A stretch of DNA of 64,000 bases from Synechococcus sp. PCC 7502. Lineage in GTDB: Bacteria > Cyanobacteriota > Cyanobacteriia > Pseudanabaenales > Pseudanabaenaceae. The translations under genes were made by a program, and so were the position numbers. Below are positions 2,762 to 38,065 of the stretch, one piece after another; positions within the stretch are counted from its first letter, which is position 1; every line of letters starts with the position of its first letter. The stretch spans positions 1,456,394-1,520,393 of the forward strand of contig NC_019702.1 in the NCBI RefSeq assembly GCF_000317085.1. Direction: 5' to 3'. The notes beneath the pieces are model-generated. The model saw only the letters and a list, made by a program, of their open reading frames with translations. It made no database searches and had not been told where the DNA came from.

Positions 2762-3652
2762 GAGCCTGTTTCATATCTCATGAGTAGCAATTCTTTTTAG
2801 CATCAAGCGAATAAAGCAAAGATTGAGTTTAGCTGTAGCATTAACGAGAGTTCTCTCAAAGTTCTTAACTAAGATTTTGCATCTTTCAACCCAATTACCC
2901 ACCTTGTCGGCACAACTACAAACCCAGACAGACCTTTTTCTGCCTTCTGTTGCTTTGATACCTTAGGAGAAATTTCAAACCTAATCTTAGTCATAATCTC
3001 AGGATAAACCTTCTGTAAATCAGTCGTCAATTTTTCGATATGATAACCACTATCCAGCAATATCGTAGTTAGCGTAATGTCATCTGGCTTCGATTTGAAG
3101 TAATCAATGTTAAACGTTAACATCTCAATCAGTCCTTGGTCATCTGATACATTTGCTCTTGTTAAATAGGTAAAGAAAGGAAATCCCAGAGTGTCAACGG
3201 CTAAATGTCTTTTGATCCCGTTAGTTGCTTTGTAGGAGCAGAAGCCCTTGGATTCTATACTTGCATTACAAGTATTTTTCACTGCTTGTGAGTCAATGAT
3301 GATTAAAGTTGTCCATTTTGATTTTTTTTTGACTGTTCACGGGCTGTTGAATGCAAAGCTTCCATAATCGCAGTAAATGTACCTGTATCTTTCCACTCCT
3401 TGTAGTATCGATACACTGTAGAGAATGGTGGTAAGTCTCGGGGCATATCTCGCCAATTACAACCGTTTTTGAGTTGGTAGAGTATGCCGTCTAAAATTTG
3501 TCTTTTTGTCCAAGTTGGCGGTCTAGTTTGCTTTTTCTTTGGGAGCAATGGTTCTATAATTTCCCATTCTTTATCTGTTAGGCTACTTGAGTATGGATTT
3601 AGCATTTTCTAAGCATCATACATCTTGCTCATAATAGATATGAAACAGGCTC
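2762..3652 (-). mobile_element. IS5-like insertion sequence, copy 1 (891 bp)
   Basis: Ends are 17-bp perfect inverted repeats, GAGCCTGTTTCATATCT, flanked by TATA on both sides (2758-2761 and 3653-3656). The transposase is on the minus strand. Two further copies lie at 3965-4852 (same strand) and 7801-8706 (opposite strand). This copy lacks 16 bp near 2892 that copy 3 has at 8561-8576. It is transposition-defective by itself but could be moved in trans because both ends are intact. Confidence 0.9.
2771..3605 (-). pseudogene. IS5-family transposase, copy 1: orfA intact, orfB lacks the catalytic Glu
   Basis: OrfA (3605 down to 3303) is a 100-residue DUF4096-type DNA-binding half beginning MLNPYSSSLTDKEWEIIEPL. 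The catalytic half (about 3308 down to 2869) has the two Asp motifs (IIDSQAV and LLDSGYHIE). The 16-bp deletion turns RWVIERSNAWVERCK into RWVIGLKDAKS-stop and so removes the Glu of the DDE triad. The halves meet at a run of nine T (3322-3330), where a -1 shift would fuse them. The same deletion in copy 2 shows that both descend from one defective parent. Confidence 0.85.
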
Positions 3653-6757: not shown

Positions 6758-7847
6758 GGGTTGATTGACCTTTTTGCATGTTTGTATTTATTTATAGCTC
6801 ATTTTTAGAGGTTCCCTTTGATTTTTTCATTAATTCTGAACAGAATCTCTGCATGTACCTCGCGGGTAATCGGATAGAGAGCCGCAAATGCAATTCCTAA
6901 AATCAAACATAAAGCTGGCAGGGGAGCAATCATAATCCGCAGGGTTTGGAGGACTAAATCTGGTTGTTGTAAAACTAATTGACCATGTTCGGGTTTAACG
7001 AATCCAGACCGATCTAAAGCAACCCCAACGCCTAGCAGGGCGATCGCCAAACCAACTTTTTGAAGCAACACCATAAACCCATAAAATACGCCTTCTCTTC
7101 TCTGCCCTGTCTTGAGTTCATCCAATTCAATTACATCGGCAATCATCGACCACGGAATCATATAGGCAGTAGAAACTCCTACCCCCGCGAGCATCGCCAG
7201 TACAAACATTAATGCAACTTGATTGGGCTGAAGAAAATATAAGCCAGTCTGAGCAAAAATCCAAACCGACATTCCAATTACATACACTGCCTTTTTGCCA
7301 ATTTTCGCGCTTACCTTTGCCCACACAAAAAGCATAACCAATGCAGTACCCTGAACTGCCAGGATCGTAAACCCTACAAATTCAGTTTTTAACTTCATCC
7401 AGTAGGTGACATAGTAAGGGATTATAGTGGCTGTATTTTGAAATGCTAACCAAGAGCAAAGATAAATCCCAATTACATACAGATAGGGCTTATTGGTGAA
7501 AGCAATTTTTAACTGAGCGATGATTGGGATTTCAATGGTTTCCAGATGATATTTTTCCCATGTTCCCCATACACACCAAAATATAGGCAAAACTGAGAGA
7601 ATACCCCAAATCAATCCAGCTATAAAATATCCTGTAGCTTGATTCTGGAAATATCCTACGATAAATGGATGCAAAACTCCAGAAAGGATGCTACCAATAA
7701 TCGAGAAGGCAAAGCGAAAGCTGTTTAAACTCGTCCGTTCGTCATAATCTTGGGTAAGTTCGGGCGTTAGTGCCGTGTATGGTAAATTGACACAAGTATA
7801 GAGCCTGTTTCATATCTATTATGAGCAAGATGTATGATACTTAGAAA

Positions 7848-8159
7848 ATGCTAAATCCATACTCAAGTAGCCTAACAGATAAAGAATGGGAAATTATAGA
7901 ACCATTGCTCCCAAAGAAAAAGCAAACTAGACCGCCAACATGGACAAAAAGACAAATTTTAGACGGCATACTCTACCAACTCAAAAACGGTTGTAATTGG
8001 CGAGATATGCCCCGAGACTTACCACCATTCTCTACAGTGTATCGATACTACAAGGAGTGGAAAGATACAGGTACATTTACTGCGATTATGGAAGCTTTGC
8101 ATTCAACAGCCCGTGAACAGTCAAAAAAAATCAAAATGGACAACTTTAATCATCATTGA
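7848..8159 (+). CDS. IS5-family transposase orfA (DUF4096 DNA-binding half), copy 3
   Basis: A 103-residue protein beginning MLNPYSSSLTDKEWEIIEPL with RQILDGILYQLKNGCNWRDMP, the conserved N-terminal half of two-ORF IS5-type transposases. It starts 47 bp inside the left end. Its 3' end overlaps orfB by 47 bp around a run of eight A (8124-8131). With seven A the two frames would be one continuous ORF; eight requires a +1 ribosomal shift or polymerase slippage to make the fused enzyme. Confidence 0.9.
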   Translation: MLNPYSSSLTDKEWEIIEPLLPKKKQTRPPTWTKRQILDGILYQLKNGCNWRDMPRDLPPFSTVYRYYKEWKDTGTFTAIMEALHSTAREQSKKIKMDNFNHH

Positions 8160-8697
8160 CTCACAAGCAGTGAAAAATACCTGTAATGCAAGTATAGAAT
8201 CCAAGGGCTTCTGCTCCTACAAAGCAACTAACGGGATCAAAAGACATTTAGCCGTTGACATACTGGGATTTCCTTTTTTCACCTATTTAACAAGAGCAAA
8301 TGTATCAGATGACCAAGGACTGATTGAGATGTTAACGTTTAACATTGATTACTTCAAATCGAAGCCAGATGACATTACCCTAACTACGATATTGCTGGAT
8401 AGTGGTTATCATATCGAAAAATTGACGACTGATTTACAGAAGGTTTATCCTGAGATTATGACTAAGATTAGGTTTGAAATTTCTCCTAAGGTATCAAAGC
8501 AACAGAAGGCAGAAAAAGGTCTGTCTGGGTTTGTAGTTGTGCCGACAAGGTGGGTAATTGAAAGGTCAAATGCTTGGGTTGAAAGATGCAAAATCTTAGT
8601 TAAGAACTTTGAGAGAACTCTCGTTAATGCTACAGCTAAACTCAATCTTTGCTTTATTCGTTTGATGCTAAAAAGAATTGCTACTCATGAGATATGA
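8113..8697 (+). CDS. IS5-family transposase orfB (DDE catalytic half), copy 3
   Basis: This frame carries the catalytic triad: IIIDSQAVKNT (first Asp), LLDSGYHIE (second Asp) and ERSNAWVERCK (Glu), followed by FERTLVNATAKLNLCFIRLMLK, the conserved end of IS5-family enzymes. It is probably made as a fusion with orfA through the A-rich overlap rather than from the GTG at 8113. It ends 9 bp before the right terminal repeat end. Confidence 0.88.
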   Translation: MNSQKKSKWTTLIIIDSQAVKNTCNASIESKGFCSYKATNGIKRHLAVDILGFPFFTYLTRANVSDDQGLIEMLTFNIDYFKSKPDDITLTTILLDSGYHIEKLTTDLQKVYPEIMTKIRFEISPKVSKQQKAEKGLSGFVVVPTRWVIERSNAWVERCKILVKNFERTLVNATAKLNLCFIRLMLKRIATHEI

Positions 8698-11458: not shown

Positions 11459-12039
11459 ACTTTATTCCTTCTCCTTTTCTTAGCACGCAGGCGACTTAAT
11501 GTTTCTTGACTAATTCCCAAATAGGAAGCCAAATACCCTAGATTTACTCTCTCTGCAATGTCTGGATGTTCTAGTAAGATAGATTCATATCGCTCTTTCG
11601 CAGATTGAACTTGAAATGATGTGACTCGATTTTGCAAGGATGTGTAATACTCTTCTAAAAGACGGCGATTTATATCTATCCAAATTGAATCTTTATCTAA
11701 TAAGTATTGCAATCCTCCATAACTTAGCGATAAAAGTTGGCTATCGCTGAGAGTAATCATGCTTATATCACTTGGCTGACGATAGGAAAAGCTAAAATAG
11801 GGAACTGCGAAGTGATTAGGAAAACTAAACCACTGGGTTACTTCCTTATCATCATTTTTCTTAAAGGAACGAATCACTCCTTCTAATACAAAATAAATTT
11901 GGTCAGAAACCTCTCCTTCTCTAAGGAGATATACATCTTTGGGTAATATTTCATGTTTTAGTACTTGTTTCAAATCTCTCTGTTGAGCTAGGCTAAGCAT
12001 CGCTAAGGAATTAAGTCTTTGAATTAGCGTTTCGTGCAT
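11455..12039 (-). CDS. Crp/Fnr-family transcription regulator without Fe-S cysteines
   Basis: A 194-residue protein. Residues about 20-115 form the cyclic-nucleotide-binding-like beta barrel (LREGEVSDQIYFVLEGVIRSF). The C-terminal helix-turn-helix is YLASYLGISQETLSRLRAKKRR. The recognition helix carries E..SR as in FNR, which contacts TTGAT half sites. There is no N-terminal Cys cluster, so it is not an oxygen sensor of the FNR type, and the cAMP-contacting residues of CRP are not evident. It probably controls the neighbouring peptide-led operon through the 11418-11458 sites. The 217 bp upstream hold no gene. Confidence 0.8.
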   Translation of the reverse strand: MHETLIQRLNSLAMLSLAQQRDLKQVLKHEILPKDVYLLREGEVSDQIYFVLEGVIRSFKKNDDKEVTQWFSFPNHFAVPYFSFSYRQPSDISMITLSDSQLLSLSYGGLQYLLDKDSIWIDINRRLLEEYYTSLQNRVTSFQVQSAKERYESILLEHPDIAERVNLGYLASYLGISQETLSRLRAKKRRRNKV

Positions 12040-12256
12040 AGGGTTTTAAGGTATATCTATAGCAAGCCTAACTAATTTAATAATTTAACTTATTTTTTTA
12101 ATTAAATCACTGAGTTTTCAGAATTCTGAATCGAAAAAACTTCCATTCTCGTGTCTTTAAAGATGTGCAGATAAGGGCTTATAAGATCGGCAAAAACTTT
12201 TTCTCTAAGGAGATATATTAAATCTCATTTCGCTCGCATGATTTCTTATGTCTCTC

Positions 12257-13162
12257 CTATTTTAAGCTTCGATTAAAGAAATCAGTAACCTTAGCGATAT
12301 AAGCTTGTGGGTTAGTGTTAAAGCTTTCAGGGTGTACTTTGGCATTGGTCTCCCAGTATTCTGCTTGGGGGTATGCAGCTTTGAGGTTGTATGCATTTTC
12401 TATTGGAGTATAGGGGTCAATCTTGCTATGTATGATCAAAACAGGTCGTGGGGAAATGCGACTGATTTCTTGCACAGGTTTAGATAAAGTGGGATCGTAT
12501 CCAGTAAATAAGTGTCCAAACATCATCGTAGAGGGCAGAAATATCTCTGGTAAGCCACCCGAAGCTGATTGCCAATGTTTTTGCATAATTGGATAAACTT
12601 CAGCGTAGCCACTGTCTGTAACAATTGCAGCAATGTCTTTATCTTCCACAGCAGCTCCGATGACACTGGCAGAACCCAATGATACTCCCAAAGCTCCGAT
12701 CTTTTGCGGTTTGAAGCCCTTTTGCTTGAGCCAGTTTACGGCGGCAATAACATCCCTTCGTTCTGTGATACCAAAGGTAATCCGTGAATCGGAGCTTTGC
12801 CCGTGTCCGCGCAAATCTATCATCAGAATAGAAAACCCTTGACGGTTCATTTCTGCCCCAAACTCGGAAAATTTATCCGCAAATTCATGGGTGCGGCTAG
12901 AATTTAAACCATGTACTAAGATTACGACTTTATCTGATTTTTGAGATTTGATATACCACCCTACAATCTCTTTCCCATCAGATGTCATTATCTTTACATC
13001 TTCAGGATTAGAGTTAAAAACAGAAATTTTCTTAGGGTCAAATACTCTTACTGCTGTAGAAAGTTTATCACCTGCGATCGCAGAAATTCCTAAATACCCA
13101 ATAACTAAAACAGATGAGATAATAGCAACTACTTTAACAAGAACTTTAATATTTCTATTCAT
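12257..13162 (-). CDS. Alpha/beta hydrolase, membrane-anchored or exported
   Basis: A 301-residue protein with an N-terminal hydrophobic segment (VVAIISSVLVIGYLGISAI) and an alpha/beta hydrolase core: HGLNSSR oxyanion region, MIDLRGHGQS, nucleophile elbow GVSLGSAS, Asp in HSKIDPYTP and a C-terminal His in KVHPESF. It resembles serine hydrolases and peptidases of the YfhR/BAAT-like group. Substrate unknown. It is the second gene after the 60-residue exported peptide at 13373-13555 (210-bp gap), matching the pattern of a peptide gene leading hydrolase or peptidase genes at 24.7-21.1 kb. Confidence 0.75.
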   Translation of the reverse strand: MNRNIKVLVKVVAIISSVLVIGYLGISAIAGDKLSTAVRVFDPKKISVFNSNPEDVKIMTSDGKEIVGWYIKSQKSDKVVILVHGLNSSRTHEFADKFSEFGAEMNRQGFSILMIDLRGHGQSSDSRITFGITERRDVIAAVNWLKQKGFKPQKIGALGVSLGSASVIGAAVEDKDIAAIVTDSGYAEVYPIMQKHWQSASGGLPEIFLPSTMMFGHLFTGYDPTLSKPVQEISRISPRPVLIIHSKIDPYTPIENAYNLKAAYPQAEYWETNAKVHPESFNTNPQAYIAKVTDFFNRSLK

Positions 13163-13372
13163 AGATTATAACTAAAAAATATTTCTGGAATTTTGATATT
13201 TTATTGAATATATTCACTTGGGTGCTTTACAGACATTTAAGACATTTAAAAGAGAGTAATTTCTGTAATAGGGAAGTTAGAAACGCTGTTGAATATTGTG
13301 ATCAAGTCGGACTGTATACTCTAGTTTCTGCCCATATTAGCTTTTTATTGCGATCCCCCACTGGGAAATACC

Positions 13373-13555
13373 TTAAAAACTACTTAAAGCTCTACCCAAA
13401 TCGCTTAATGAGAATGAATTTCTCCCTTCCCAAGTACTTAAGCTATTATCATCTCGAACATTTTGTTGGCTGCCATAGGCATTAATTCCAAAATACATTG
13501 ATGTTGAGGTTATCATTAATAACATCACCACATTAAATACTAAATTCCTGTGCAT
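13373..13555 (-). CDS. 60-residue exported peptide (paralogue of 24592-24774)
   Basis: The ATG is set by a GGAGG six bases upstream. A signal or anchor segment (residues 5-29, ending near INAYGSQQ) is followed by a 30-residue polar tail ending SLSDLGRALSSF. The paralogue at 24592 has the same length and nearly the same tail (NSLSTWE, RNSFSLSD, GRA). Both are preceded by an almost identical leader of about 100 bp. The conserved tail suggests a secreted or periplasmic peptide. It heads the transcription unit of the hydrolase at 12257. Function unknown. Confidence 0.65.
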   Translation of the reverse strand: MHRNLVFNVVMLLMITSTSMYFGINAYGSQQNVRDDNSLSTWEGRNSFSLSDLGRALSSF

Positions 13556-13561
13556 ATATAT

Positions 13562-13660
13562 CCTCCACTATGTGAAGTAACTTTGATGTCATTACAATCT
13601 CAGAGTTTCTTCGTAGGATAGGCTCAGATTTAAGTTCACTTTTGTGCTCACTTTTACGCA
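13562..13660 (-). promoter_or_regulatory. Conserved promoter leader of exported-peptide gene 1
   Basis: This segment is nearly identical to 24786-24880, upstream of the paralogous peptide gene. The distal part (13622-13656), read on the minus strand, contains tandem 12-bp units: AAAAGTGAGCAC, AAAAGTGAACTT, AAATCTGAGCCT. The same array precedes the TPR gene at 20874-20907. Tandem direct repeats of this kind are typical sites for OmpR- or NarL-type regulators. Confidence 0.6.
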
Positions 13661-13675
13661 CTGTCGCTATGTTAT

Positions 13676-14320
13676 TTACATTTTGGCGAGAGATCCGATC
13701 GAGGTAGCTAAGATGGCAATTTGAGTGCGGTTGCGCAAATTTAACTGGCTTAAAATGCTAGTAATATGATTTTTAACCGTTCTAGGGGAGATGTGGAGCT
13801 TATTAGCAATCTCCTCATTGTTGACACCCGTAGCTATGAGTTTTACTATTTCTTGTTCTCTGGGCGTAAGCTTATCCAAGTCGCTTGTCGCTACCTCTGA
13901 AATATCAGGAATTCGGGCAATTACCTTCCTACCCAAATTCAAATCCAGATGCATATACCCTCGATAAACAGCCTGAATTGCAAACGTTAACTCTTCAGGT
14001 GGGGTATTTTTTAAAATATAACCTGATGCCCCATATTTTAGTGCCTGTGAGATATATTCATCCGTCTCATCAATTGTGAGAATTAAGACTTTGATCGGAC
14101 CTGAGAGATTGCAAATCCGTCTTGTCGCTTCTACCCCATCCATATGCGGCATTTGAATATCCATTAGTATGATATCTGGTTGGAGGAGTTCTGCTTGGGT
14201 AATAGCTAACATGCCATTTTCTGCCTCGCCCACAATTTCTAAAGAAGATTCATCTCCAAGGGAAATTCTCAAAGCGCGACGAATGAAAGCATGATCGTCT
14301 ACAAGTAAAATGCGAATCAT
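13676..14320 (-). CDS. NarL/FixJ-type response regulator
   Basis: A 214-residue protein. The receiver domain (1-120) has LLVDDHAFIR, the phospho-acceptor Asp in ILMDIQMPHMDG, and the conserved Thr and Lys (LILT; ILKNTPPEEL). The C-terminal LuxR-type HTH has LTPREQEIVKLIATGVNNEEIANKL and SPRTVKNHI. No cognate histidine kinase is adjacent. The region upstream (14395-14450) holds several AGTCC/GGACT half sites that may be autoregulatory. It could control the nearby peptide operons, but this is only positional inference. Confidence 0.85.
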   Translation of the reverse strand: MIRILLVDDHAFIRRALRISLGDESSLEIVGEAENGMLAITQAELLQPDIILMDIQMPHMDGVEATRRICNLSGPIKVLILTIDETDEYISQALKYGASGYILKNTPPEELTFAIQAVYRGYMHLDLNLGRKVIARIPDISEVATSDLDKLTPREQEIVKLIATGVNNEEIANKLHISPRTVKNHITSILSQLNLRNRTQIAILATSIGSLAKM

Positions 14321-14394
14321 CGGAGTTACCTATCCAGTTATGAGATATCACCTAAGTTGCCTAAGCATAGCTGTTGCTAAAAAATCAAACAAGT

Positions 14395-14450
14395 AGCAAT
14401 AGTCCTAAATGCACCTAGGACTTTAGTCCCATTTTATTAAGGACTCAGGC
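14395..14450. promoter_or_regulatory. Repeated AGTCC/GGACT half sites
   Basis: AGTCC and GGACT occur four times within about 50 bp (AGTCCTAAATGCACCTAGGACT, interrupted by a central spacer, then TTAGTCCC and AAGGACT) between the divergent NarL- and CheY-type regulator genes. A related pair (GGACTTAA and TTAGTCCTAG) lies at 20949-20990, upstream of the TPR gene. They are candidate regulator sites, with no direct proof. Confidence 0.35.
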
Positions 14451-14512
14451 TTCATGTTTTATCAGGTTTTCAACTATAGGATTGGCAGGTAAAAAGTAAG
14501 AGGTGTAATTCT

Positions 14513-14914
14513 ATGTCCAAGATTTTAGTGGTTGAAGATAGTCAAGCTCAAAGAGAAACTATTATAAATATCCTTAAAAGTCATAAATTTGAGATTGCCA
14601 CGGCTAAAAATGGGGTGGAGGCGATCGCTCAAGCTAAATCTATCCAACCAGATGTGATCATTTTAGATATCGTAATGCCAGGGATGAATGGTTATGAAAT
14701 CTGTCGACAACTTAGGGATAATCCTTTAACCAGTCATATTAGGATTGCGATCTGCTCTACTAAGTCAACAAAAGTTGATCGCTATTGGGGATTCAAGCAA
14801 GGGGCAAATGCCTATATCATTAAGCCTTTTTCAACTAAAGATTTAGTTGACACTGTACATGAGCTACTTCCTTCCCAATCAAGGAATAGGCAAAAAGTCG
14901 ATCCCTATAATTAA
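14513..14914 (+). CDS. CheY-like single-domain response regulator
   Basis: A 133-residue receiver domain: KILVVEDSQAQRE, phospho-acceptor Asp in VIILDIVMPGMNGYEICRQLR (near residue 51), Ser in CSTKST and Lys in YIIKPFSTKDL. There is no output domain. It is of the kind (PilH/PatA-partner-like) that acts in phosphorelays or motility. It is divergent from the NarL-type regulator and 328 bp upstream of the cyclase-STAND gene, so a joint signalling role is plausible but unproven. Confidence 0.85.
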   Translation: MSKILVVEDSQAQRETIINILKSHKFEIATAKNGVEAIAQAKSIQPDVIILDIVMPGMNGYEICRQLRDNPLTSHIRIAICSTKSTKVDRYWGFKQGANAYIIKPFSTKDLVDTVHELLPSQSRNRQKVDPYN

Positions 14915-15242
14915 GCTAGATATTATAAATACAAGCTCATTTAATGTTTAATATCGCACTGGGAACGGAGCAAGGTAAAATTGCGTTAGTCGAAAATTTC
15001 TTTAATAGATTGCTAATGTCATAATTTATTGCAGCTCCATTTTGAAATACCCAGTTAGCTGAATTAGGCGATAGTCCTGCCTCAAATCCTAATAATTGGG
15101 GTAAAATTCTTTCGAGGTTGGTTATTATTCTTTTAAGATAAAAGAGGCTTTAAGGAAATTCAAAAATGCCAAAACTCCTATCTACTGGGGCATACCAAAT
15201 AGAAAGGCTTGGGAAAAGTTGAGAATAAATTAAGTAACAGCT
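14915..15242. other. Intergenic region without an intact gene
   Basis: No credible ORF is seen on either strand. Short stretches such as LAELGDSPASNPNNWGK (plus strand, near 15055-15110) look like protein-coding remnants, but I cannot assign a family. The promoter of the cyclase-STAND gene should lie near the 3' end of this region. Confidence 0.3.
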
Positions 15243-18200
15243 ATGTCAAACTCTTTAAAGGCATCGTTAGAAGGATTAGAGATTATCAATCGAGCGCGTC
15301 TGAGACATGGTTGGACTAAAACCAGAAGTGCGGCTTGGTGGATGAAAGCCGATGTTTCACAGATCACATTGAGAAGATTTTGGAGTGGTGAGAAGGTAAG
15401 GCGTGATAATTTTATCGCCATCTGTGATGCGGTAGGTATTAAAGATTGGCAGGCGATCGCAGTGCCTGTTGAAGAGCTGATTGCAGAAATCTATGAATCC
15501 ACAATTTCAGCAAAAGTAAGTATGGCTAAGGAAATAAGTCTAACTGAGACAAAAAGAAATTTAGCAGCAATTGTGTTTACGGATATTCAAGGATTTACTG
15601 CGCATTTAGAAAATCATGAAGAGCAAGCATTAACAGCAATTGCCCGCGATTTTCAAATGATGACCGATATTTGTCAAAGCTTTGAAGGGCAAGTCTTAAA
15701 GTCCACAGGTGATGGTTTACTGCTCTATTTTACGAGTGCGATCGCTGCCGTTGCCTGCGCCTTAGAAATTCAAGAATCACTGGTGAAATTCTCTGAAACT
15801 ATTTCAGATTCCATATCAGAACTTATCCTCGCGCATCGCATAGGCATCCATCTAGGGGATGTATTTTTTAGCGATGGTGATGTGATGGGGAATGGGGTAA
15901 ATATTGCTTCTAGGATTCAAAATGAAGCAGAACCCGGCGGCATCTGCATATCGCAAACAGTCTATGATGTTGTTAAGCATACCCTATCCTTAAAAGCAAA
16001 TTATCTGGGGGCAAGGGAATTAAAGAATATCTCAGAAGCAGTACCCATCTACGAAATTCTCCTTGTTTCCCAAGAGGCAAGAGCGAGAAATAGAGAACAA
16101 GTTAAGTTATCTACAACTAAGCTGCGAGCAGATATAAAGCAAGTTTTTCATCAAAGCCAAGATTGGGGAGAAGCTCCTGATGTTTCAGATTTTTATGGGC
16201 GCGATCGCGAAATATCACAATTAGAAAGTTGGATAATTAATGATCGCCACAAATTAATTGCTATCCTAGGTATGGGCGGAATTGGCAAAACTACTATAGC
16301 CGTGGCAGTTGCCGATCAGGTATCCACTCACTTTGACTGTTTAATCTGGCGCAGTTTGCGAAATGCACCACCTGTGGATCAATTATTAAGCGATTTATTG
16401 TTATCGCTTTCCACCGAGCAATTAAACGAAACTGAAGGCTTCGATCAAAAATTGTCGCGCGTGACAAGATATATTCAAGATCGTCGCTGCTTATTGGTCT
16501 TAGATAACCTAGAGTCGATTTTGAGCGAGGATGAAAGAGGGAGATATCGAAGCGGATATGAAGGCTATGCCGAATTGGTGAGATGTTTCGCCGAGACCAG
16601 ACATCAGGGTTGTTTAGTCTTTACTGGTCGGGAGCCACCGTTGGAGTTATCTAGGTTTAATAGTGCGCGATCTCTTCTGCTGTCTGGAGTGTCAGATGCT
16701 GATGGGAAGAGAATCTGCAATCAAATCGCCGCTCTGGATGCTTCCGAACGAGAATGGCATCAGATTATAACCCACTACGGCGGTAATCCATTAGCATTAA
16801 AGATAGTGGTAGCAGGAATTCGAGATTTATTGGGTGGCGATGTAAGGCAATTTCTAGAATTATTATCCCAAGGCATTTTAGGTTTCCGAGATATTCAAGA
16901 TGTGCTGTCCCGACAATTTGACAGGATTTCTATATATGAACGCGAAGCTATGTATTGGCTAGCGATCGCTAGAGAACCAATTAGCTTTAAGGAATTACAC
17001 GAAGATTTAGTATCTTTAGGATCAAGACAAAAGTTACTAGATACTTTAGAGTCGTTACAGAGGCGATCTTTGTTAGAAACCTCTCATAACTGCTTTAACC
17101 TACAGCCAGTTGTGATGGAATATGTGACAAATTATTTGGTAGAAGAGGTTAGCCAAGAATTATCCCAAGGATTTAAAGCATGGGTGCTGTTTCGGAGTCA
17201 CGCTCTAATTAAAGCTTCTGCGCCAGATTACATTCGTGAAATTCAGGTGCGCTTTATATTAAATCCAATTATTGATCGGATTGGGAACGATTATTTGGGC
17301 GAACTACTTTTACAATTAAAGGCGGGAAGTAAAAAAGACTATGCCGCGGGAAATCTCCTCAACTTACTTGTCCAAGCAGGTACGGATTTGACTAATTATG
17401 ACTTTTCCGATTTGACGATTTGGCAAGCATATTTGCGTGATGTAAATCTTCATTCCACCAACTTCCGTAACTCTAACCTCACTCAATCCACATTCAGAGA
17501 AACTTTTCTCAATATCATTTCTTTATTATTTAGTGCCAATGGAGAATTTCTCGCCACAGGGGATAGCCACGGACAGATCGGACTCTGGCAGGTAAGCAAT
17601 GGTAAGCGCATCTTAGAAATAGACGGACATACAGATATTGTGTTTGCCCTAGCTCTAGCGACGGATGGGAAATACCTAGTCAGTGGTAGCTTAGATCAAA
17701 CTGTGAAATTATGGAATCTCCAAACTGGTAATTGTGAATCTACCTTACTTGATCAGACTGGTGGAATTTCTATGCTGGTACTGAGTCCAGATAATCACTA
17801 TCTTGCCTGTAGTTGCGGCGATCGCTATATTCGTGTGCTTGATTTACTCGAACGACGGGTGATCCACACTTTATCAGGGCATACAAATATTCCTAGAGCG
17901 ATCGCCTTCGATCCCCACAGACCGATCCTTGCCAGTTGTGGGTTAGACAGCACAATTCGAGTTTGGGACTTAAAAACTGGGGTGTGTTTGCAGGTTATAG
18001 CCGATGAAAGCGAACTCTATACCCTTGCCTTCAGTGCCGATGGTAAGTTGCTTGCCACAGGTGGCGAAAATGGGGTCATTAAATTTTGGTCAACTCACAC
18101 TTGGACTTGTCTAAATACCCTAACTGGGCATAGCGATCGGCTTTGGTCAATTAGCTTTAGCCTCGATGGCAGGTTTCTGGCTAGTGCTGGCGATGACCTA

Positions 18201-19370
18201 TCAGTACGGATCTGGGATGTAGAAACTGGAGTTTGTTTAAGAAATTGGTTGGCACATCAATCGCGGATTTGGTCGTTGGCATTTAGTCCAAATAGCTTGA
18301 TTTTAGCCAGTGGTAGTGAAGATAAGAGTATAAAATTTTGGCACCCAGAAACTGGTCATTGCTTGCGCAAGTTACAAGGATGCTCAAATGAGATATCTCC
18401 CTTTGCCTTTAAAGGAAATAATTTGTATTTGTTAAGTGGAGTTGACGGACAAAATATTCAAGTTTGGAATATAAATACTGGAAAATGTGAAAAACGCATA
18501 CCAACTCATAACGCCTTCCAAGCTAGTCTGAGTCCAGATTGCCGACTTTTAGCTTCTGCTAGTTTGGATAATTTAATTCGGATTTTTGCTGTAGAGACTG
18601 GTAATTTAATTAAAACTCTTACAGGGCATACGATTTGGGTCAGAGAAACTGTGTTTAACCCAAATGGCGACCTAGTTGCCAGCGCTAGTGGCGATAAAAC
18701 CGCTAAACTTTGGGATGTGCAGACAGGTCAATGCCTGCATACTTTAATCGGACATTCGGCACCGTTGCAAGCGATCGCCTTTAGCCCTAATGGAAATATC
18801 CTAGCAACTGGGGCTTGGGATGCAGCGATCGGCATCTGGGATGCCCAGTCAGGTGAATGCCTGAGAATGCTTAGAGGACATAACGATCGCATTGCGGTTG
18901 TATCTTTTCACCCTAATAGTAATATTCTTGCCAGTGGCAGCCGAGATTCCACAATTCGTCTATGGAATATCCACACAGGCGAATGTATCCTGATCGTTCC
19001 TCACTTAAGCGTCAAACTTCATGCTCTAGCGATTCATCCTAGCGGCAATATACTCGCAAGTTCCGGATTAGATACTGCGGTAAGACTTTGGGATGTGCAA
19101 ACAGGTAAGCTGTTGCATAGCTTAGATTGCAGCACTAAAATTAAGTGGATTTGGTCGGTGGTATTTAGCGAAGATGGACGACTTCTTGCCACTGGCAGTG
19201 AAGATGGCTTATGTCAGATTTGGGATGTGAATACTGCAACTTGTATTCAAACTATAAAGATTTCTCGCCCCTATGAAGGTATGAATATTTATGGAGTGCG
19301 AGGTGTGACCGAAGCTCAAATTTCCGTGCTTAGAGAGTTAGGAGCGATCGAAGATTATTTCAAAGGATGA
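15243..19370 (+). CDS. HTH-adenylate cyclase-NB-ARC-WD40 signalling protein (STAND family)
   Basis: A 1375-residue protein. Residues 12-72 form an HTH-like domain (RHGWTKTRSAAWWMKADVSQ). Residues 105-275 form a class III cyclase: metal-binding Asp114 (FTDIQGFT) and Asp157 (STGDGLLLYF), Lys153 for adenine selection, and Asn220 with Arg224 (NIASR). Residues 318-650 form an NB-ARC ATPase with P-loop GMGGIGKTT (342-350) and Walker B CLLVLDNLES. After a linker containing DFSDLTIWQAYLRDVNL there are about 13-14 WD40 repeats. All key cyclase residues are present, so it may make cAMP under NTPase control. Such STAND proteins are signal sensors, and some take part in defence or cell death. The WD repeats probably bind the trigger. 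Confidence 0.9.
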   Translation: MSNSLKASLEGLEIINRARLRHGWTKTRSAAWWMKADVSQITLRRFWSGEKVRRDNFIAICDAVGIKDWQAIAVPVEELIAEIYESTISAKVSMAKEISLTETKRNLAAIVFTDIQGFTAHLENHEEQALTAIARDFQMMTDICQSFEGQVLKSTGDGLLLYFTSAIAAVACALEIQESLVKFSETISDSISELILAHRIGIHLGDVFFSDGDVMGNGVNIASRIQNEAEPGGICISQTVYDVVKHTLSLKANYLGARELKNISEAVPIYEILLVSQEARARNREQVKLSTTKLRADIKQVFHQSQDWGEAPDVSDFYGRDREISQLESWIINDRHKLIAILGMGGIGKTTIAVAVADQVSTHFDCLIWRSLRNAPPVDQLLSDLLLSLSTEQLNETEGFDQKLSRVTRYIQDRRCLLVLDNLESILSEDERGRYRSGYEGYAELVRCFAETRHQGCLVFTGREPPLELSRFNSARSLLLSGVSDADGKRICNQIAALDASEREWHQIITHYGGNPLALKIVVAGIRDLLGGDVRQFLELLSQGILGFRDIQDVLSRQFDRISIYEREAMYWLAIAREPISFKELHEDLVSLGSRQKLLDTLESLQRRSLLETSHNCFNLQPVVMEYVTNYLVEEVSQELSQGFKAWVLFRSHALIKASAPDYIREIQVRFILNPIIDRIGNDYLGELLLQLKAGSKKDYAAGNLLNLLVQAGTDLTNYDFSDLTIWQAYLRDVNLHSTNFRNSNLTQSTFRETFLNIISLLFSANGEFLATGDSHGQIGLWQVSNGKRILEIDGHTDIVFALALATDGKYLVSGSLDQTVKLWNLQTGNCESTLLDQTGGISMLVLSPDNHYLACSCGDRYIRVLDLLERRVIHTLSGHTNIPRAIAFDPHRPILASCGLDSTIRVWDLKTGVCLQVIADESELYTLAFSADGKLLATGGENGVIKFWSTHTWTCLNTLTGHSDRLWSISFSLDGRFLASAGDDLSVRIWDVETGVCLRNWLAHQSRIWSLAFSPNSLILASGSEDKSIKFWHPETGHCLRKLQGCSNEISPFAFKGNNLYLLSGVDGQNIQVWNINTGKCEKRIPTHNAFQASLSPDCRLLASASLDNLIRIFAVETGNLIKTLTGHTIWVRETVFNPNGDLVASASGDKTAKLWDVQTGQCLHTLIGHSAPLQAIAFSPNGNILATGAWDAAIGIWDAQSGECLRMLRGHNDRIAVVSFHPNSNILASGSRDSTIRLWNIHTGECILIVPHLSVKLHALAIHPSGNILASSGLDTAVRLWDVQTGKLLHSLDCSTKIKWIWSVVFSEDGRLLATGSEDGLCQIWDVNTATCIQTIKISRPYEGMNIYGVRGVTEAQISVLRELGAIEDYFKG

Positions 19371-23140: not shown

Positions 23141-24580
23141 TTAATGGGGATTGAGGGGAATTTGAGGACGAAGCCCCAACTCCCTTAATTTCAGTAAAAT
23201 CTCTTCATGTCTCAGCCGCGAGATGGGATATACGAAGGCAAAAAATATGCCACCTAATAATGCCAAAATTGGAACTAGACTTATCATCAGGCGGATTGCC
23301 CAAAGTGCAGATTCTGGTTGAATTGGCGGCGAGTTCTCCGCGATAGTTGGGATAAAATTGCTCCAATCTAGAGTTTTTCCTACTAAAAAGAGAGCGATCG
23401 CAATGCCAATCTTGAGTAACTGAGTCACAAATCCATAAAATACCCCTTCTTGTCGCTGTCCCGTTCGCAACTCCTCATAGTCAATAACATCAGGCAACAT
23501 GGCACCCGGAATCAGATAGACTACAGAAATCCCTGCTCCGGCTAATACCGCTAAACCATACATCAAGACAACTTGCCCCGGCTGCACTAAAAATAAACCA
23601 ATTTGAGCGATCGCCCACAGGGGAATACCAAGAAAGTAGACCGCCTTTTTCCCTAGTCTTTGACTGAGAATGCTCCAAGGAATCATCATGATTAAAGCCG
23701 TTCCTTGCACTGCGATCGCGGCTTGGGCAAAGTGTTGATCGGGCAATCCCATCCAATTTACGACAAAGTAAGGTAAAATCGCTGAATTAGTTTGGACGGC
23801 AATCCAAGAACAGAGATAAATACCCATCAAGATCAGAAATGGAATATTGCTTAGCACAATCCGCATCTGGGCAATGAGATTAGGCGAATTATCGTTATGA
23901 TCATTTATACTGATGTGCTTATTCATCAGGCGCAATTGGGGGCGCGTTCCCCAGATGCAAACAAATATTGTCAATGTCGATAGAATTGCGAAGGCGATCG
24001 CCATCATCAAATATTTATCCTGCGGATTAGATATCTTAGCGAAGATGATCTGTGCCACGATTAAAGCGAAGATTCCCGCTCCTAGTCCAAAAGCGGCTTT
24101 AAACCCGTTTAAACCAGTACGTTCGTGATAGTCTTGGGTTAAATCGGGAATCAATGCCAAGTATGGCAAAAACACAGCCGAAAAGGCGGTATCTGCTAAC
24201 AAAGAGATCGCTGCATAGTACCAAAAGAGGAATATTTGGTTGAGTTGAAGTTCGCTGCTAAAATTTGGTACAATCCATTGCATTACGGACAGGCTTGCAA
24301 AAGGAATACTGCCCCAGAGCATCCATGAGTGCCGCTTTCCCCATTTAGAGACCGTGCGATCGCTCAACCAGCCAATGACTGGATCGTTAACTGCATCCCA
24401 GATTCTGCCTATCAATAACACCGTACCGGCAAGGCTAGGATTTAACCCAGCCACATTCGTCAGAAAGAATAACTGAAAGAAGGCGCGAATAGTCACAAAG
24501 ATAGAAGCACCAATTTCGCCAATTCCATAGGAAAGTTTGGTTTTGAAATTCAGCTTAGTTCCTAAATAATCTGATTGCAT
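23141..24580 (-). CDS. GPH-family transporter (MelB-like), intact paralogue
   Basis: A 479-residue, 12-segment transporter: LSYGIGEIGASIFVTI, RIWDAVNDPVIGWLSDRT, KWGKRHSWMLWGSIP and LTQDYHERTGLNGFKAAFG. Family members move glycosides or other small solutes with a cation. It is the second gene of an operon: 60-residue exported peptide, this transporter, M28 peptidase, DUF2817 peptidase. Its relative at 6805-9118 is split by an IS. The peptidase neighbours make a peptide-like substrate conceivable, although the family is best known for sugars. Confidence 0.9.
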   Translation of the reverse strand: MQSDYLGTKLNFKTKLSYGIGEIGASIFVTIRAFFQLFFLTNVAGLNPSLAGTVLLIGRIWDAVNDPVIGWLSDRTVSKWGKRHSWMLWGSIPFASLSVMQWIVPNFSSELQLNQIFLFWYYAAISLLADTAFSAVFLPYLALIPDLTQDYHERTGLNGFKAAFGLGAGIFALIVAQIIFAKISNPQDKYLMMAIAFAILSTLTIFVCIWGTRPQLRLMNKHISINDHNDNSPNLIAQMRIVLSNIPFLILMGIYLCSWIAVQTNSAILPYFVVNWMGLPDQHFAQAAIAVQGTALIMMIPWSILSQRLGKKAVYFLGIPLWAIAQIGLFLVQPGQVVLMYGLAVLAGAGISVVYLIPGAMLPDVIDYEELRTGQRQEGVFYGFVTQLLKIGIAIALFLVGKTLDWSNFIPTIAENSPPIQPESALWAIRLMISLVPILALLGGIFFAFVYPISRLRHEEILLKLRELGLRPQIPLNPH

Positions 24581-24591
24581 AACATCCTTCC

Positions 24592-24774
24592 TTAAAAACT
24601 TCTAAATGCTCTACCAAAATCGCTTAATGAGAATGAATTTCTAACTTCCCAAGTGCTTAAGCTATTGCCATCCCGAATCTTCTGTTGGCTTCCATAGGCG
24701 TTAATTCCAAAATATAATGATGCTGAAATCATGATTGATAACATCGCAGCTTTAAATACTAAGTTTTTGCGCAT
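24592..24774 (-). CDS. 60-residue exported peptide heading the transporter/peptidase operon
   Basis: I chose the ATG at 24774 because GGAGG lies six bases upstream; a TTG two codons earlier is less likely. The sequence starts MRKNLVFKAAMLSIMISASL, passes INAYGSQQ and ends SLSDFGRAFRSF. It is the same length as the peptide at 13373-13555 and about 75% identical. It is 11 bp from the transporter start. Signal-like N-terminus plus conserved short tail suggests a secreted signal or envelope microprotein. Confidence 0.65.
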   Translation of the reverse strand: MRKNLVFKAAMLSIMISASLYFGINAYGSQQKIRDGNSLSTWEVRNSFSLSDFGRAFRSF

Positions 24775-24785
24775 ATCCAACCTCC

Positions 24786-24880
24786 AAAATGTGAAATAAC
24801 TTTGATGTCATTACAATCTCAGAGTTTCTTGGTAGGATAGGCTCAGATTTAAGTTCACTTTTGCGCTCACTTTTAAGCAA
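24786..24880 (-). promoter_or_regulatory. Conserved promoter leader of exported-peptide gene 2
   Basis: Nearly identical to 13562-13660, including the stretch TTTGATGTCATTACAATCTC. The distal part (24841-24875) carries the tandem 12-bp array shared with 13622-13656 and 20874-20907. Conservation of a non-coding leader over about 95 bp points to shared regulation or recent duplication. Confidence 0.6.
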
Positions 24881-25025
24881 TGCCGTTATGAGTTTCCTGT
24901 TCTTCTCCGAATATAATCTCTTCAACAACTTTGTAACACCACCGATTTGTTGGACTGTCAGCTAATCTGTCCGCCTACAGACTTGGCTAATTCTTCGACT
25001 TAGTCATCTACGGTAATGTATATCA

Positions 25026-31118: not shown

Positions 31119-31505
31119 ATGAGAATACTCCTTGATACCCATACCTTCCTGTGGTGGGTTGCTGACGACCCAAAACTATCTGTAAATGCCAAAGCTATTA
31201 TTGCTAACCCAGATAACGATGTGTACTTCAGTGTTGTCAGTGCATGGGAAATTATTATCAAAGTGGGGACTGGAAAGCTTACTTTATCTGAAGCACCCGA
31301 AACTTATATTCCCAGTCGAGTCGCCTCAAACCAATTTGAGATACTACCCGTGCAGATGTCGCACATTTTGAGGGTTAATAGTTTACCCAATTTTCACAAA
31401 GACCCCTTTGACAGATTATTAATCGCCCAAAGTATGGAAGAGAACTTATTAATTGTGACAATAGATAACCTAATAATCCAGTACCCAGTTAAATCCATCT
31501 GGTAG
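31119..31505 (+). CDS. PIN-domain ribonuclease toxin (VapC family)
   Basis: A 128-residue protein. LLDTHTFLWWVADDPKLS (Asp near 5), SVVSAWEIIIKVGTGKL (Glu near 43), KDPFDRLLIAQSM (Asp near 94-97) and VTIDNLI are the acidic motifs of this PIN subgroup, which pairs with Phd-type antitoxins. It would stabilise the element. Its stop codon overlaps the recurrent junction motif that leads into the Gp157 gene. Confidence 0.88.
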   Translation: MRILLDTHTFLWWVADDPKLSVNAKAIIANPDNDVYFSVVSAWEIIIKVGTGKLTLSEAPETYIPSRVASNQFEILPVQMSHILRVNSLPNFHKDPFDRLLIAQSMEENLLIVTIDNLIIQYPVKSIW

Positions 31506-31539
31506 TCCTTTGGTTTGGTTGAAATTAAGGACAAATAAT

Positions 31540-32061
31540 ATGAGTACCCTGTACCAAATCAACCACGATCTAAACGAACTAGAAAATCAACTAGAAGAAC
31601 TTGACCTAAACAATGCCAGTCAAGACGAGCATAATGCTTTCATCGAACAATGGTTGTGCCTTGAAGGTGAACTGCATTCAAAGCTCGACAACTATGGTAT
31701 TTTCATCCGAGAACTGGAAGCAAGGGCAGAAGTAAGAAAAGCTGAAGCAAAGCGATTGGATGAACTAGCTACAGTAGATGAGAATAAAGTAAAGGCATTG
31801 AAAGCATCATTGCTCTATGTATTTACAGCCCGTGAAATCAAGAAACTGGAAACCAAGCGATTTTCATTTTCTAGGGTAAAGAATGGTGGTAAAGCACCTC
31901 TAGTCCTAAATGAATTAACTCCTATTTCTGAAATACCTAAAGAGTTTCAAACTGTGATCGTCCAAGTCAGTAAAGAAACCGTGAGAATAGCTCTGGAATC
32001 TGGACGAGAATTACCTTTTGCCAAACTTGGTGAACGAGGGGAGAACATCAGAATCAAGTAA
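31540..32061 (+). CDS. Gp157-like phage protein (left arm)
   Basis: A 173-residue protein. A long coiled coil (residues 5-100: ELENQLEELDL, RKAEAKRLDELATVDENKVK) is followed by a compact C-terminal domain with RFSFSRVKNGGKAPLVL. This is the Siphovirus Gp157 family, linked in some phages to resistance or recombination functions. The right arm carries a homologue at 50683-51198. Start chosen at ATG 31540; an upstream in-frame start at 31510 lies inside the junction motif. Confidence 0.8.
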   Translation: MSTLYQINHDLNELENQLEELDLNNASQDEHNAFIEQWLCLEGELHSKLDNYGIFIRELEARAEVRKAEAKRLDELATVDENKVKALKASLLYVFTAREIKKLETKRFSFSRVKNGGKAPLVLNELTPISEIPKEFQTVIVQVSKETVRIALESGRELPFAKLGERGENIRIK

Positions 32062-32105
32062 CAAAAGTCTTACAGCGATATTGAAATCAAATTAGCAAGA
32101 AAACT

Positions 32106-32453
32106 ATGACCAAAACTAAAATCGCATTAACTATCGTTAAATTACTAGGAATTACTGCATTGTTGGCGATCGCCCTAGCAACCATAATCCTAATTGAAAC
32201 ATTACAGCTAATTGCCCATCTAATCCATGCTCTAACCGAAAAACCAGAGATAACTCTGTCCATTCAACCACTTCTCAAACCTATAGTTCCCATCAAATTT
32301 CCCAACACCAAACCCCAATGGATGATCGACCTATTACCCAGAGAATACCTCACCATCAAATACCTGAAAGCATGGGCAAAACAACGGCGAATCAAAAACT
32401 ATTCCAAACTCAGTAAATCCAACCTAATCCTTGCCCTCAGTCCTGCGGGTTAA
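32106..32453 (+). CDS. Small membrane-anchored protein with basic tail
   Basis: A 115-residue protein. One long N-terminal membrane segment (VKLLGITALLAIALATIILI, residues about 12-40) is followed by a basic C-terminal tail (LKAWAKQRRIKNYSKLSKS) that resembles a SAP-like or DNA-contacting helix pair. Its organisation recalls the AT-hook membrane protein at 40362-40697 in the middle element. Function unknown; a membrane-tethered nucleic-acid-binding role is possible. Confidence 0.55.
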   Translation: MTKTKIALTIVKLLGITALLAIALATIILIETLQLIAHLIHALTEKPEITLSIQPLLKPIVPIKFPNTKPQWMIDLLPREYLTIKYLKAWAKQRRIKNYSKLSKSNLILALSPAG

Positions 32454-32474
32454 GCAAAACTAAAAAGAAGTCAA

Positions 32475-32819
32475 ATGATTACCCAATCGGATTTACAACA
32501 ATTCTACGGCACAGAACAACATTACCGATACCTCAACATCCTAATCACCGATGGAGTCAAATATCTGGCTGACGAAGGAGAATGCCATTGGCTTCTAGGC
32601 ATCATTGCCAGCTTCCATCATCAAATCAAGCGAAACGGCAGGCTCTATGAGTTTTGTCTATGGCAAGCCGAACGGAAAGGCGATGGAGCCATAATCACAG
32701 CCAGAGGAGATACAAATGAACCAGCATTCCTAGAACAACATCTCGACTATGCCGAACTTACCTTTAACATCAAACTCTATCAATGTGGAAAAGTGGTAAT
32801 GCTACCCAGCGAATATTAA
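32475..32819 (+). CDS. DUF6876 family protein
   Basis: A 114-residue protein: LQQFYGTEQHYRYLNILITD, GVKYLADEGECHWLLGIIAS and a C-terminal FNIKLYQCGKVVMLPSEY. This matches the DUF6876 family of phage and plasmid proteins with unknown role. It ends just before the inverted repeat at 32825-32879 that precedes the XRE repressor. The corresponding slot in the right arm holds a DUF3768 protein. Confidence 0.7.
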   Translation: MITQSDLQQFYGTEQHYRYLNILITDGVKYLADEGECHWLLGIIASFHHQIKRNGRLYEFCLWQAERKGDGAIITARGDTNEPAFLEQHLDYAELTFNIKLYQCGKVVMLPSEY

Positions 32820-32824
32820 ATATG

Positions 32825-32879
32825 CTCTACATCTAGTATGATGAGCCATAATAACAAATGGTACCCGCTAGATGTAGAG
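32825..32879. promoter_or_regulatory. 12-bp inverted repeat upstream of the XRE gene
   Basis: CTCTACATCTAG (32825-32836) and its exact complement (32868-32879) are 31 bp apart and end 5 bp before the XRE start codon. A pair of operator half sites for the repressor, or a hairpin in the mRNA leader, are both possible. Confidence 0.5.
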
Positions 32880-32884
32880 GCATT

Positions 32885-33067
32885 ATGCAAACCACTCAAC
32901 CCACATCTAAATTTATTAAAGAACTCCGCTTTCGTCTTGGCATGACCCAAGAACAGTTTGCTGCGGAGTTGGGGGTGACAGTTGCATCAGTAAGACGCTG
33001 GGAAAATAATAAAGCTACCCCTTCACCATTAGCTTTAAAAGTAATGGAATCTCTTAACAACCAGTAG
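32885..33067 (+). CDS. XRE/Cro-type repressor (left arm)
   Basis: A 60-residue single helix-turn-helix protein: FIKELRFRLGMTQEQFAAEL and VTVASVRRWENNKATPSPLA. It is related over its whole length to the right-arm repressor at 49462-49638. It lies directly upstream of the conserved leader of gene A, where 11-bp direct repeats (CTGAGTAGTCA near 33068 and 33101) may be its operators. The start at 32885 follows the inverted repeat; an upstream start at 32858 would run through that repeat. Confidence 0.8.
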   Translation: MQTTQPTSKFIKELRFRLGMTQEQFAAELGVTVASVRRWENNKATPSPLALKVMESLNNQ

Positions 33068-33191
33068 TCTGAGTAGTCAGATGAGTACTCAAGTGAGCGG
33101 TCAACTGAGTAGTCATTTGCAGTGGTAATCCATAGCAAATCCAGAGATGATTCTGATCAAATCCAGATCAGTCCCATATCAACTCCATATC
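33068..33191 (+). promoter_or_regulatory. Gene A leader with operator-like repeats (left arm)
   Basis: The first half contains CTGAGTAGTCA twice and related GAGTACTCA/GTGAGCGGTCA units. The second half (33124-33191) is shared with the right arm (TAATCCATAGCAAATCCAGA, GATGATT, ATCAGTCCCATATCA). CAAATCC/CAACTCC units recur at about 20-bp spacing. A degenerate version (ATATCAAATCC repeated) lies at 3726-3770 in the left-end block. Confidence 0.55.
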
Positions 33192-33923: not shown

Positions 33924-33972
33924 GCCAGTTCCCTAAATTAGTTCGATTCATTCACCCATACTCAAAAAGATA

Positions 33973-35022: not shown

Positions 35023-35025
35023 GCC

Positions 35026-35526: not shown

Positions 35527-35530
35527 AACT

Positions 35531-36686: not shown

Positions 36687-36688
36687 CT

Positions 36689-36777: not shown

Positions 36778-36842
36778 TAGCGATCGCCAATAAGTATGGA
36801 AATAACTGGACAACAACAACCTTGTGAATACGAAGAATCCAA

Positions 36843-37964: not shown

Positions 37965-38065
37965 ATTTGTCTCACAGTTATCTAACAAAAACGCCCTGAA
38001 ATTTCGTGAAAAATCGGGTAATTCCCAGTTAGACGTATTTTGACAGATATGATCCAGTAAATGCA

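Follow-up and report, generated by a model that had tools for sequence, protein, structure and literature searches.

A candidate STAND-gated adenylyl cyclase with an Apaf-1-like domain order in the cyanobacterium Synechococcus sp. PCC 7502

We analyzed a window of 64,000 nucleotides from Synechococcus sp. PCC 7502 (contig NC_019702.1, positions 1,456,394 to 1,520,393 of the forward strand; coordinates below are positions within this window) and focus on a single gene at 15243-19370 on the plus strand. The gene is one uninterrupted open reading frame (ORF), with an ATG at 15243 and a stop at 19370, and encodes a protein of 1375 amino acids in which a helix-turn-helix-like (HTH-like) domain, a class III nucleotidyl cyclase domain, an NB-ARC ATPase and about 14 WD40 blades follow one another. 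A preliminary description of this DNA had noted cyclase, NB-ARC and WD40 in one protein, which the ORF and the Pfam matches bear out: Guanylate_cyc (PF00211) was matched at residues 107-261 (E 1.2e-14, search with residues 1-730), NB-ARC (PF00931) at residues 322-522 (E 7.7e-14, 52 bits against a cut-off of 23.5), and WD40 repeats in the C-terminal half (E 1.6e-109), with all scores exceeding the curated Pfam cut-offs. Promoter- and terminator-like sites are no more numerous than in shuffled sequence.

The cyclase domain (residues 107-275, 15561-16067) carries all six canonical positions of the class III adenylyl cyclases in an alignment with cyclases of the same and other genomes. These are the two metal-binding aspartates, Asp114 (15582-15584) and Asp157 (15711-15713), the substrate-specifying pair, Lys153 (15699-15701) and Asp213 (15879-15881), the latter for adenine, and the transition-state residues Asn220 (15900-15902) and Arg224 (15912-15914). 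The preliminary description had placed Lys153, Asp157, Asn220 and Arg224 correctly; Asp114 and Asp213, which it omitted, complete the set. In nucleotide cyclases, as described in the available part of one source (PMC4886424), the lysine and the aspartate determine the preference for ATP, the asparagine and the arginine are thought to stabilize the transition state, and the class III enzymes are active only when dimeric. The nearest solved sequences to the domain are 3mr7 (E 1e-28) and Ma1120 of M. avium, and its nearest relatives of solved structure either are adenylyl cyclases or carry an adenylate/guanylate cyclase annotation. A profile of seven members of the subfamily likewise ranked 3mr7 (2.6e-36) and Ma1120 (3.8e-24) first among solved structures, with the cytidylate cyclase 8jsf at 1.9e-4, and a Foldseek search with the AlphaFold2 model of residues 1-319 (mean predicted local distance difference test score, pLDDT, 81) returned 3mr7_A (E 1.5e-14, template modelling (TM) score on target 0.86) and Ma1120 chains (about 0.9). 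Because the six residues are intact, the Lys-Asp pair among them, and the solved relatives and Foldseek matches are adenylyl-cyclase-like, conversion of ATP to cyclic AMP (cAMP) is the best prediction for this domain.

Downstream of the cyclase, a long helix linking it to the NB-ARC domain is predicted at residues 277-304 (16071-16154; AlphaFold2, block pLDDT 56-74). The NB-ARC domain (residues 322-522, 16206-16808) has intact motifs, namely Walker A, GMGGIGKT, at residue 343, Walker B, LLVLDN, at residue 417, and GGNPLA at residue 513; a domain score over the cut-off, both Walker motifs and a GxP motif are the features of an NB-ARC STAND protein. The WD40 region (residues 745-1345, 17475-19277) contains 13 blade-end motifs, found by pattern search at a spacing of about 42 residues from 779 to 1280, and in the model of residues 292-1375 a total of 57 strands is predicted from model residue 460 onward, a number consistent with 14 four-stranded blades and, probably, two seven-bladed propellers. 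With this model as query, the top Foldseek match was the highly repetitive propeller 2ymu, followed by full-length murine Apaf-1 (E 2e-45, 1159 columns). The architecture is accordingly predicted to combine an Apaf-1-like body with a cyclase that takes the place of the effector, the likeness lying in domain order and propellers. As in Apaf-1, an N-terminal output domain precedes an NB-ARC domain and tandem WD40 propellers, the latter judged here from motif spacing and prediction, whereas the Synechococcus protein is bacterial and has a cyclase and an HTH-like domain instead of a CARD. Given that CARD is not among the 12 Pfam families matched in residues 1-730 at E 0.05, membership of the Apaf-1 family itself fails on this point.

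The N-terminal domain (residues 1-80, 15243-15482), apparently XRE-related, is the least clear part of the protein. The preliminary description had called it HTH-like, which holds at the level of the family: HTH_3 is matched by 3 of the 8 aligned members, and the AlphaFold2 model predicts helices at residues 9-21, 26-36, 40-47 and 54-63. The protein itself gave no Pfam match with its first 106 residues at E 0.05 or with its first 80 at E 0.1, and a profile search of solved structures with the domain yielded nothing convincing (best E 0.1). DNA binding, as had been suggested, is possible, and protein contact is equally so. The best phmmer matches of the domain were L027 (E 8e-26), L146 (8e-23) and L213 (4e-22). 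It occurs in the same place in 14 of the 29 cyclase-free NB-ARC loci (L013-L041; L027, as above, L029 at 4e-14, and the others at 1e-6 to 2e-3), and in L146, from another cyanobacterium, it is combined with the cyclase and an AAA_35 NTPase in place of NB-ARC. The recurrence of the domain in these two settings shows that the parts of the protein can be exchanged.

The combination of this cyclase with NB-ARC has a patchy distribution. In a search of 58 genomes, the host included, with residues 1-730, the two domains were found together, among the matches listed, in the host, L043 and L044 only. L043 is 1382 residues long with WD40 repeats and is 47% identical to the Synechococcus protein. Altogether, 51 of the 58 genomes match at E 1e-20, and because nearly all listed matches begin near residue 300, NB-ARC without this cyclase is common. 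Within the family of the host (38 genomes), the combination was seen only in the host and in G004, with a match on contig C39 of G016 left out. The sole congener examined (85% complete) carries no more than a cyclase of 33% identity joined to helical repeats; the search of the genus (2 genomes) gave just two short matches in it, and no insertion boundary could be read. A scan of a genome-contig collection with residues 1-730 gave no match, and none of 72,556 plasmid records covers 80% of this region; 488 plasmid records match partially, most of them rhizobial, and the 30 plasmid matches listed are all cyanobacterial and start at residues 236-308. A phage collection gave two weak matches (27% identity).

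The cyclase subfamily itself has many partners. In a search of 386 genomes of the phylum, in which up to 7 candidates per genome were scored so that the counts are lower bounds, a close cyclase (E 1e-22) was present in at least 20 genomes. A scan of the genome-contig collection with the alignment of seven cyclases found 166 relatives, and the best 80 were analyzed for domains by similarity searches. No other domain was detected in 24 of these, a number that may hide nSTAND1 cases because nSTAND1 was left out of the domain queries. The partners of the remainder were a kinase (18), NACHT with a segment rich in transmembrane helices (13), TIR and AAA_35 (10), helical repeats (6), a kinase-cyclase-NACHT-transmembrane arrangement (3) and AAA_35 followed by the cyclase (2), with one case each of NACHT ending at a contig end, HTH-cyclase-AAA_35, cyclase-WD40 and CHAT-cyclase. 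NB-ARC was found in none of these 80 at the threshold used. Pfam confirmed NACHT, TIR_2, AAA_35, CHAT and Pkinase in example relatives. In four genomes of another cyanobacterial family (that of G049; 42 genomes), proteins of 1371-1392 residues combine the cyclase with WD40 (L227, L228, L229 and L230); nSTAND1 lies between the two in the three that were scanned (E 1e-110 to 3e-109) and, by sequence likeness, in L229. With nSTAND1 thus replacing NB-ARC, the cyclase-STAND-WD40 plan exists with two STAND clades. That one cyclase subfamily is fused to different STAND-type NTPases is evident directly from these sequences, and it strengthens the reading of the protein as a sensor coupled to second-messenger synthesis, which the preliminary description had advanced and which remains the best one; its term "inflammasome-like" is better replaced, in view of the Foldseek result, by "Apaf-1-like".

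A Ser/Thr kinase, the cyclase, NACHT and a segment rich in transmembrane helices are found in one chain at L080, L083 (= L183), L084 (= L160, Planktothrix rubescens), L088 and L171. The cyclase, TIR and AAA_35 occur in one protein at L082, L087, L089 and the ten loci counted above (two of which are L082 and L087 again), which would place two possible nucleotide-based outputs side by side. At L236 (5125-6492 of that locus), in a genome of the same family, a CHAT protease domain is joined directly to this cyclase in a protein of 456 residues.

The phylogenetic trees were quick and built from a sample of top matches, with several long branches flagged. In the NB-ARC tree (33 rows), the Synechococcus protein clusters with L027 and with proteins from its own family that lack the cyclase (SH-like approximate likelihood-ratio test 99), L043 is nearest L024, and L044 lies elsewhere. 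On the NB-ARC data, forcing the three cyclase-NB-ARC proteins into one clade is 50 log units worse (approximately unbiased (AU) test, p 3.05e-6), and forcing the Synechococcus protein and L043 alone together gives p 0.0116. A single origin of the three is thus rejected by the NB-ARC tree, the cyclase data being compatible with it for the Synechococcus protein and L043. In the cyclase tree (99 rows, comprising 72 of the 80 loci after 8 repeats were dropped, without the degenerate L097, L098 and L099), the Synechococcus protein is nearest NACHT-type cyclases, and L043 is nearest, by path, a TIR-AAA_35 cyclase. Since the three proteins are not united in the NB-ARC analysis, repeated origin of the fusion is probable. 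The NB-ARC data speak for two or more joins, or for a single join with several losses; taken alone, the cyclase data do not settle this.

Conservation of the catalytic site is extensive across the subfamily. All six residues are kept in 100 of the 109 aligned cyclase rows, the Synechococcus protein included, or in 97 of 106 when L232, L233 and L234, apparently the same loci as L140, L145 and L147, are counted once; these rows include the three degenerate sequences excluded from the tree. The site is intact in all NB-ARC (3/3), nSTAND1-WD40 (4/4), kinase-NACHT (5/5) and TIR-AAA_35 (11/11) rows and in 16 of the 18 NACHT rows. The nine rows that are not intact comprise two kinase, two NACHT, three helical-repeat and two double-AAA_35 proteins, among which L158 is merely truncated at the start. 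One of the altered sequences is a paralogue in the host genome itself (L042/L099, G000:C3:226065-226556), a subfamily cyclase found by protein search, in which none of the six residues survives and which Pfam does not match at E 0.001; it is a pseudo-cyclase and possibly serves as an adaptor. In this protein, the cyclase remnant is followed by helical segments, and a similar protein, L212, is present in the congener. Two other cyclases of the host, L002 and L009, are changed at several of the canonical positions. Decay therefore occurs both in this genome and in the subfamily, yet has spared the protein analyzed here.

For a cAMP signal, the host has candidate receptors, none of them encoded next to the gene. 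The genome contains 13 domains that bind cyclic nucleotide monophosphates (cNMPs) at E 0.001, 12 of them over the Pfam cut-off, and three of the 13 (L112, L113 and L114) match a phosphate-binding motif that was sought on both strands. Of these three, L112 (G000:C3:2395586) is an MscS-type channel, possibly cAMP-gated, that bears a cNMP-binding domain at its C-terminus, and L114 is a Crp-type regulator, both confirmed by Pfam. A local candidate, the Crp-like neighbour L122 (11455-12039, minus strand, 194 residues, with a cNMP_binding match), was discarded because this motif is not matched in it; nor does Pfam detect an effector domain in this protein. In six related genomes, with 12 to 29 cNMP-binding domains each, none was listed within 50 kb of a cyclase-STAND gene on the same contig, two of the contigs being short; the search for a co-encoded cyclic-nucleotide effector, which the preliminary description had proposed as a check, was thus negative. 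Because no intact receptor is co-encoded, the gene is not part of a Pycsar-like two-gene unit, and cAMP would act through shared receptors elsewhere in the genome. Membership of Pycsar itself was rejected: four of five other host cyclases score better than this protein on the PADLOC PycC models (2.7e-12 here, up to 8.3e-27 for the others; the fifth, L001, scores lower), and there is no adjacent receptor with a transmembrane or TIR effector.

Taking these lines of evidence into account, we consider a STAND-gated adenylyl cyclase a reasonably probable identity for the protein. In the resting state, its WD40 propellers would keep the NB-ARC domain closed and prevent its one cyclase domain from meeting a partner. 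Binding of a ligand to the propellers would lead to nucleotide exchange at NB-ARC and oligomerization, as in Apaf-1, whereupon the cyclase domains would pair via the linker helix and produce cAMP. The cAMP would then reach receptors encoded elsewhere, such as the Crp-type regulator and the MscS-type channel. The most likely biological role would be stress or conflict signalling; indirect signs favour such a role without settling it, and a part in defence is plausible. Since related cyanobacterial proteins join the same kind of cyclase to other switches, cAMP may be an alarm output of such sensors. A bolder version, in which the protein would form a bacterial "apoptosome", with an Apaf-1-like wheel pairing the cyclases so that a burst of cAMP opens MscS-type channels, and one cyclase subfamily repeatedly joined to NB-ARC, nSTAND1, NACHT and AAA_35 as an alarm output, strikes us as rather unlikely.

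Several observations weigh against a STAND-gated adenylyl cyclase. No intact cNMP effector was found to be co-encoded with the gene. L044 (750 residues, 44% identity) lacks WD40. The cyclase site is not intact in 2 of the 18 NACHT rows and 2 of the 3 double-AAA_35 rows, and an NTPase partner is therefore no guarantee that it is kept. A single clade of the Synechococcus protein and L043 is compatible with the cyclase tree (AU p 0.34). The TM-score to Apaf-1 is low (about 0.25-0.26), as domain packing in the model is uncertain, and the NB-ARC part is poorly modelled (block pLDDT 36-75), so that it is chiefly the propellers that account for the match to Apaf-1. Finally, nine class III cyclase domains of the host genome (3.58 Mb, three contigs) exceed the Pfam cut-off; given the eight others, the share of this protein in total cAMP may be small.

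Among the alternatives, the one that survives best, although we hold it only tentatively, is that the protein is an anti-phage or abortive-infection sensor whose burst of cAMP or another cNMP shuts the cell down. STAND proteins with an N-terminal effector and a C-terminal sensor, such as Avs, are proven phage sensors according to the available text of one source (PMC12931631), and among the messenger-making domains of predicted VMAP conflict systems, cNMP cyclases, some of them inactive, are the most frequent (PMC7159879). NB-ARC relatives also occur on cyanobacterial plasmids, in the 30 places listed above. About 2 kb from the cyclase-NB-ARC-WD40 homologue at L043, genes at 11813-15140 of that locus match NsnA, NsnB and NsnC in PADLOC (E 1e-144, 1e-124 and 2e-101), components of the Menshen antiphage system; by inspection, a RAYT-like transposase ORF lies between these genes and the homologue. 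Likewise, a kinase-ankyrin gene about 3 kb from the L044 gene matches PD-T4-6 models (E 4e-66, PADLOC), such kinase models being broad. The L044 gene, however, also has dsbD-like, glutamate-dehydrogenase and secA-like genes around it, and a transposase-like ORF is located at its start (by inspection). Furthermore, the three neighbours in the window that were tried, two PIN-domain genes and one NuiA-like gene, have no PADLOC match at E 1e-5, no receptor is co-encoded, and the PycC match is weaker than those of four of five other host cyclases.

The surroundings of the gene had been described as having mobile elements on both sides. Such elements are present, at some distance: 6.5 kb to the left and 12-17 kb to the right, none of them adjacent. 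On the left lie transposase fragments (2869-3282 and 8113-8697), a shortened MFS_2 sugar-transporter gene (6805-7674, minus strand), L122, a response regulator with a LuxR-type HTH (13676-14320, minus strand) and a single receiver protein (14513-14914, plus strand). On the right, a TPR protein, a DUF2817 protein, an M28 peptidase and an MFS transporter are followed by a phage-type stretch; an MFS_2 sugar-transporter gene is found at 23141-24580 (minus strand), and a PIN-domain gene at 31119-31505 stands just before the stretch. The latter (31510-38129) comprises a siphovirus Gp157-like protein (31510-32061), an integrase (36843-38129) and several unmatched ORFs. None of the window neighbours recurs beside L043 or L044 (inspection of ORFs of at least 130 residues). 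A direct repeat of 300 nucleotides (13371-13670 and 24590-24889, 86% identical, 11.2 kb apart) was considered as a mobile-element boundary and set aside, being rather, by eye, a duplicated short gene with an ORF of about 60 residues on the minus strand.

Somewhat unlikely, in our view, is a housekeeping or environmental cyclase, in which the WD40 and NB-ARC parts would sense a metabolic or light-related state and cAMP would control motility or carbon responses via the Crp-type regulator. Nine class III cyclase domains in one genome, a host Crp-type regulator with the matching phosphate-binding motif and the known physiological roles of cAMP in cyanobacteria all speak for such a function, but a housekeeping gene would be expected to occur more steadily than this one does in its family and in the congener.

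We consider it unlikely that the cyclase serves for regulation or nucleotide sensing, binding ATP or being weakly active and so adjusting the STAND switch, with the HTH-like domain recruiting the true effector (DNA or a partner protein). The cyclase-free NB-ARC loci that share this domain (14 of 29) must signal without a cyclase, 9 of the 109 cyclase rows are not intact (one only by truncation), and several vWA-fused cyclases are reported to be inactive (PMC7159879). However, a pure scaffold would be expected to decay, as L099 has, whereas the six residues are intact here and in the great majority of the subfamily. The weakest alternative, that the product is cyclic UMP (cUMP) or cyclic CMP (cCMP) as in Pycsar, is highly improbable: PycC models do match the protein, and K104 is among the active-site residues of the Anabaena cUMP cyclase in the available part of the source (PMC11224242), so that a lysine may suit UTP, but other host cyclases match PycC far better, the subfamily profile ranks adenylyl-cyclase-like structures well above the cytidylate cyclase, and the Lys-Asp adenine pair is intact.

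Returning to the STAND-gated adenylyl cyclase, its separate elements have counterparts in known systems. In the VMAP and iSTAND2 systems, as far as the available parts of the sources go (Kaur et al. 2020, PMC7159879; Kaur et al. 2021, PMC8195603), cNMP cyclases are likewise coupled to NTP-dependent conflict switches in multicellular bacteria, cyanobacteria among them, with cyclases infrequently linked to iSTAND2 (PMC8195603); these are multi-gene MoxR-vWA systems, whereas here cyclase, NB-ARC and sensor form one chain. No MoxR, vWA or VMAP was found among the Pfam matches of 28 window neighbours, a scan that took in ORFs up to about 40 kb, except for some short ones. The mammalian soluble adenylyl cyclase ADCY10 has a class III cyclase followed by a putative NTPase, probably auto-inhibitory, for which the available text of a review (PMC6023465) cites the STAND paper; it differs in having two tandem cyclase domains, that text does not mention WD40, and its cyclase is only distantly similar to the subfamily profile (E about 0.02). 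The available text on Avs/AVAST (PMC12931631) describes the same tripartite plan of effector, NTPase and sensor, but the effectors it names are nucleases and a Sir2 NADase, with no cyclase. Pycsar PycC shares the class III-type cyclase motifs, whereas in the available text (PMC11224242) Pycsar pairs the cyclase with a cyclic-pyrimidine receptor; here no receptor is adjacent, and the profile is adenylyl-cyclase-like. Because the VMAP/iSTAND2 papers and the review of soluble adenylyl cyclase describe them, cyclases near STAND NTPases are an already known kind. In the literature searched, mostly non-subscription and without the STAND survey of Leipe et al. (2004), we found no report of cyclase-NB-ARC-WD40 or cyclase-nSTAND1-WD40 proteins. 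Within mycobacteria and proteobacteria, the Rv0386-type cyclase-AAA-TPR/HTH proteins also have the cyclase N-terminal to a P-loop NTPase; their C-terminus is TPR or LuxR-type, not WD40.

To our knowledge, the effectors of characterized bacterial NLR-like proteins mostly cut or deplete something. If the reading proposed here is correct, a STAND wheel would instead synthesize a diffusible messenger, uniting the logics of NLR-like and cyclic-nucleotide signalling in one polypeptide. The presence of one cyclase subfamily on several types of NTPase would make effector dimerization by STAND assembly testable through a simple, quantitative cAMP read-out. For cyanobacteria, it would imply a possible alarm function of cAMP beside its known physiological roles.

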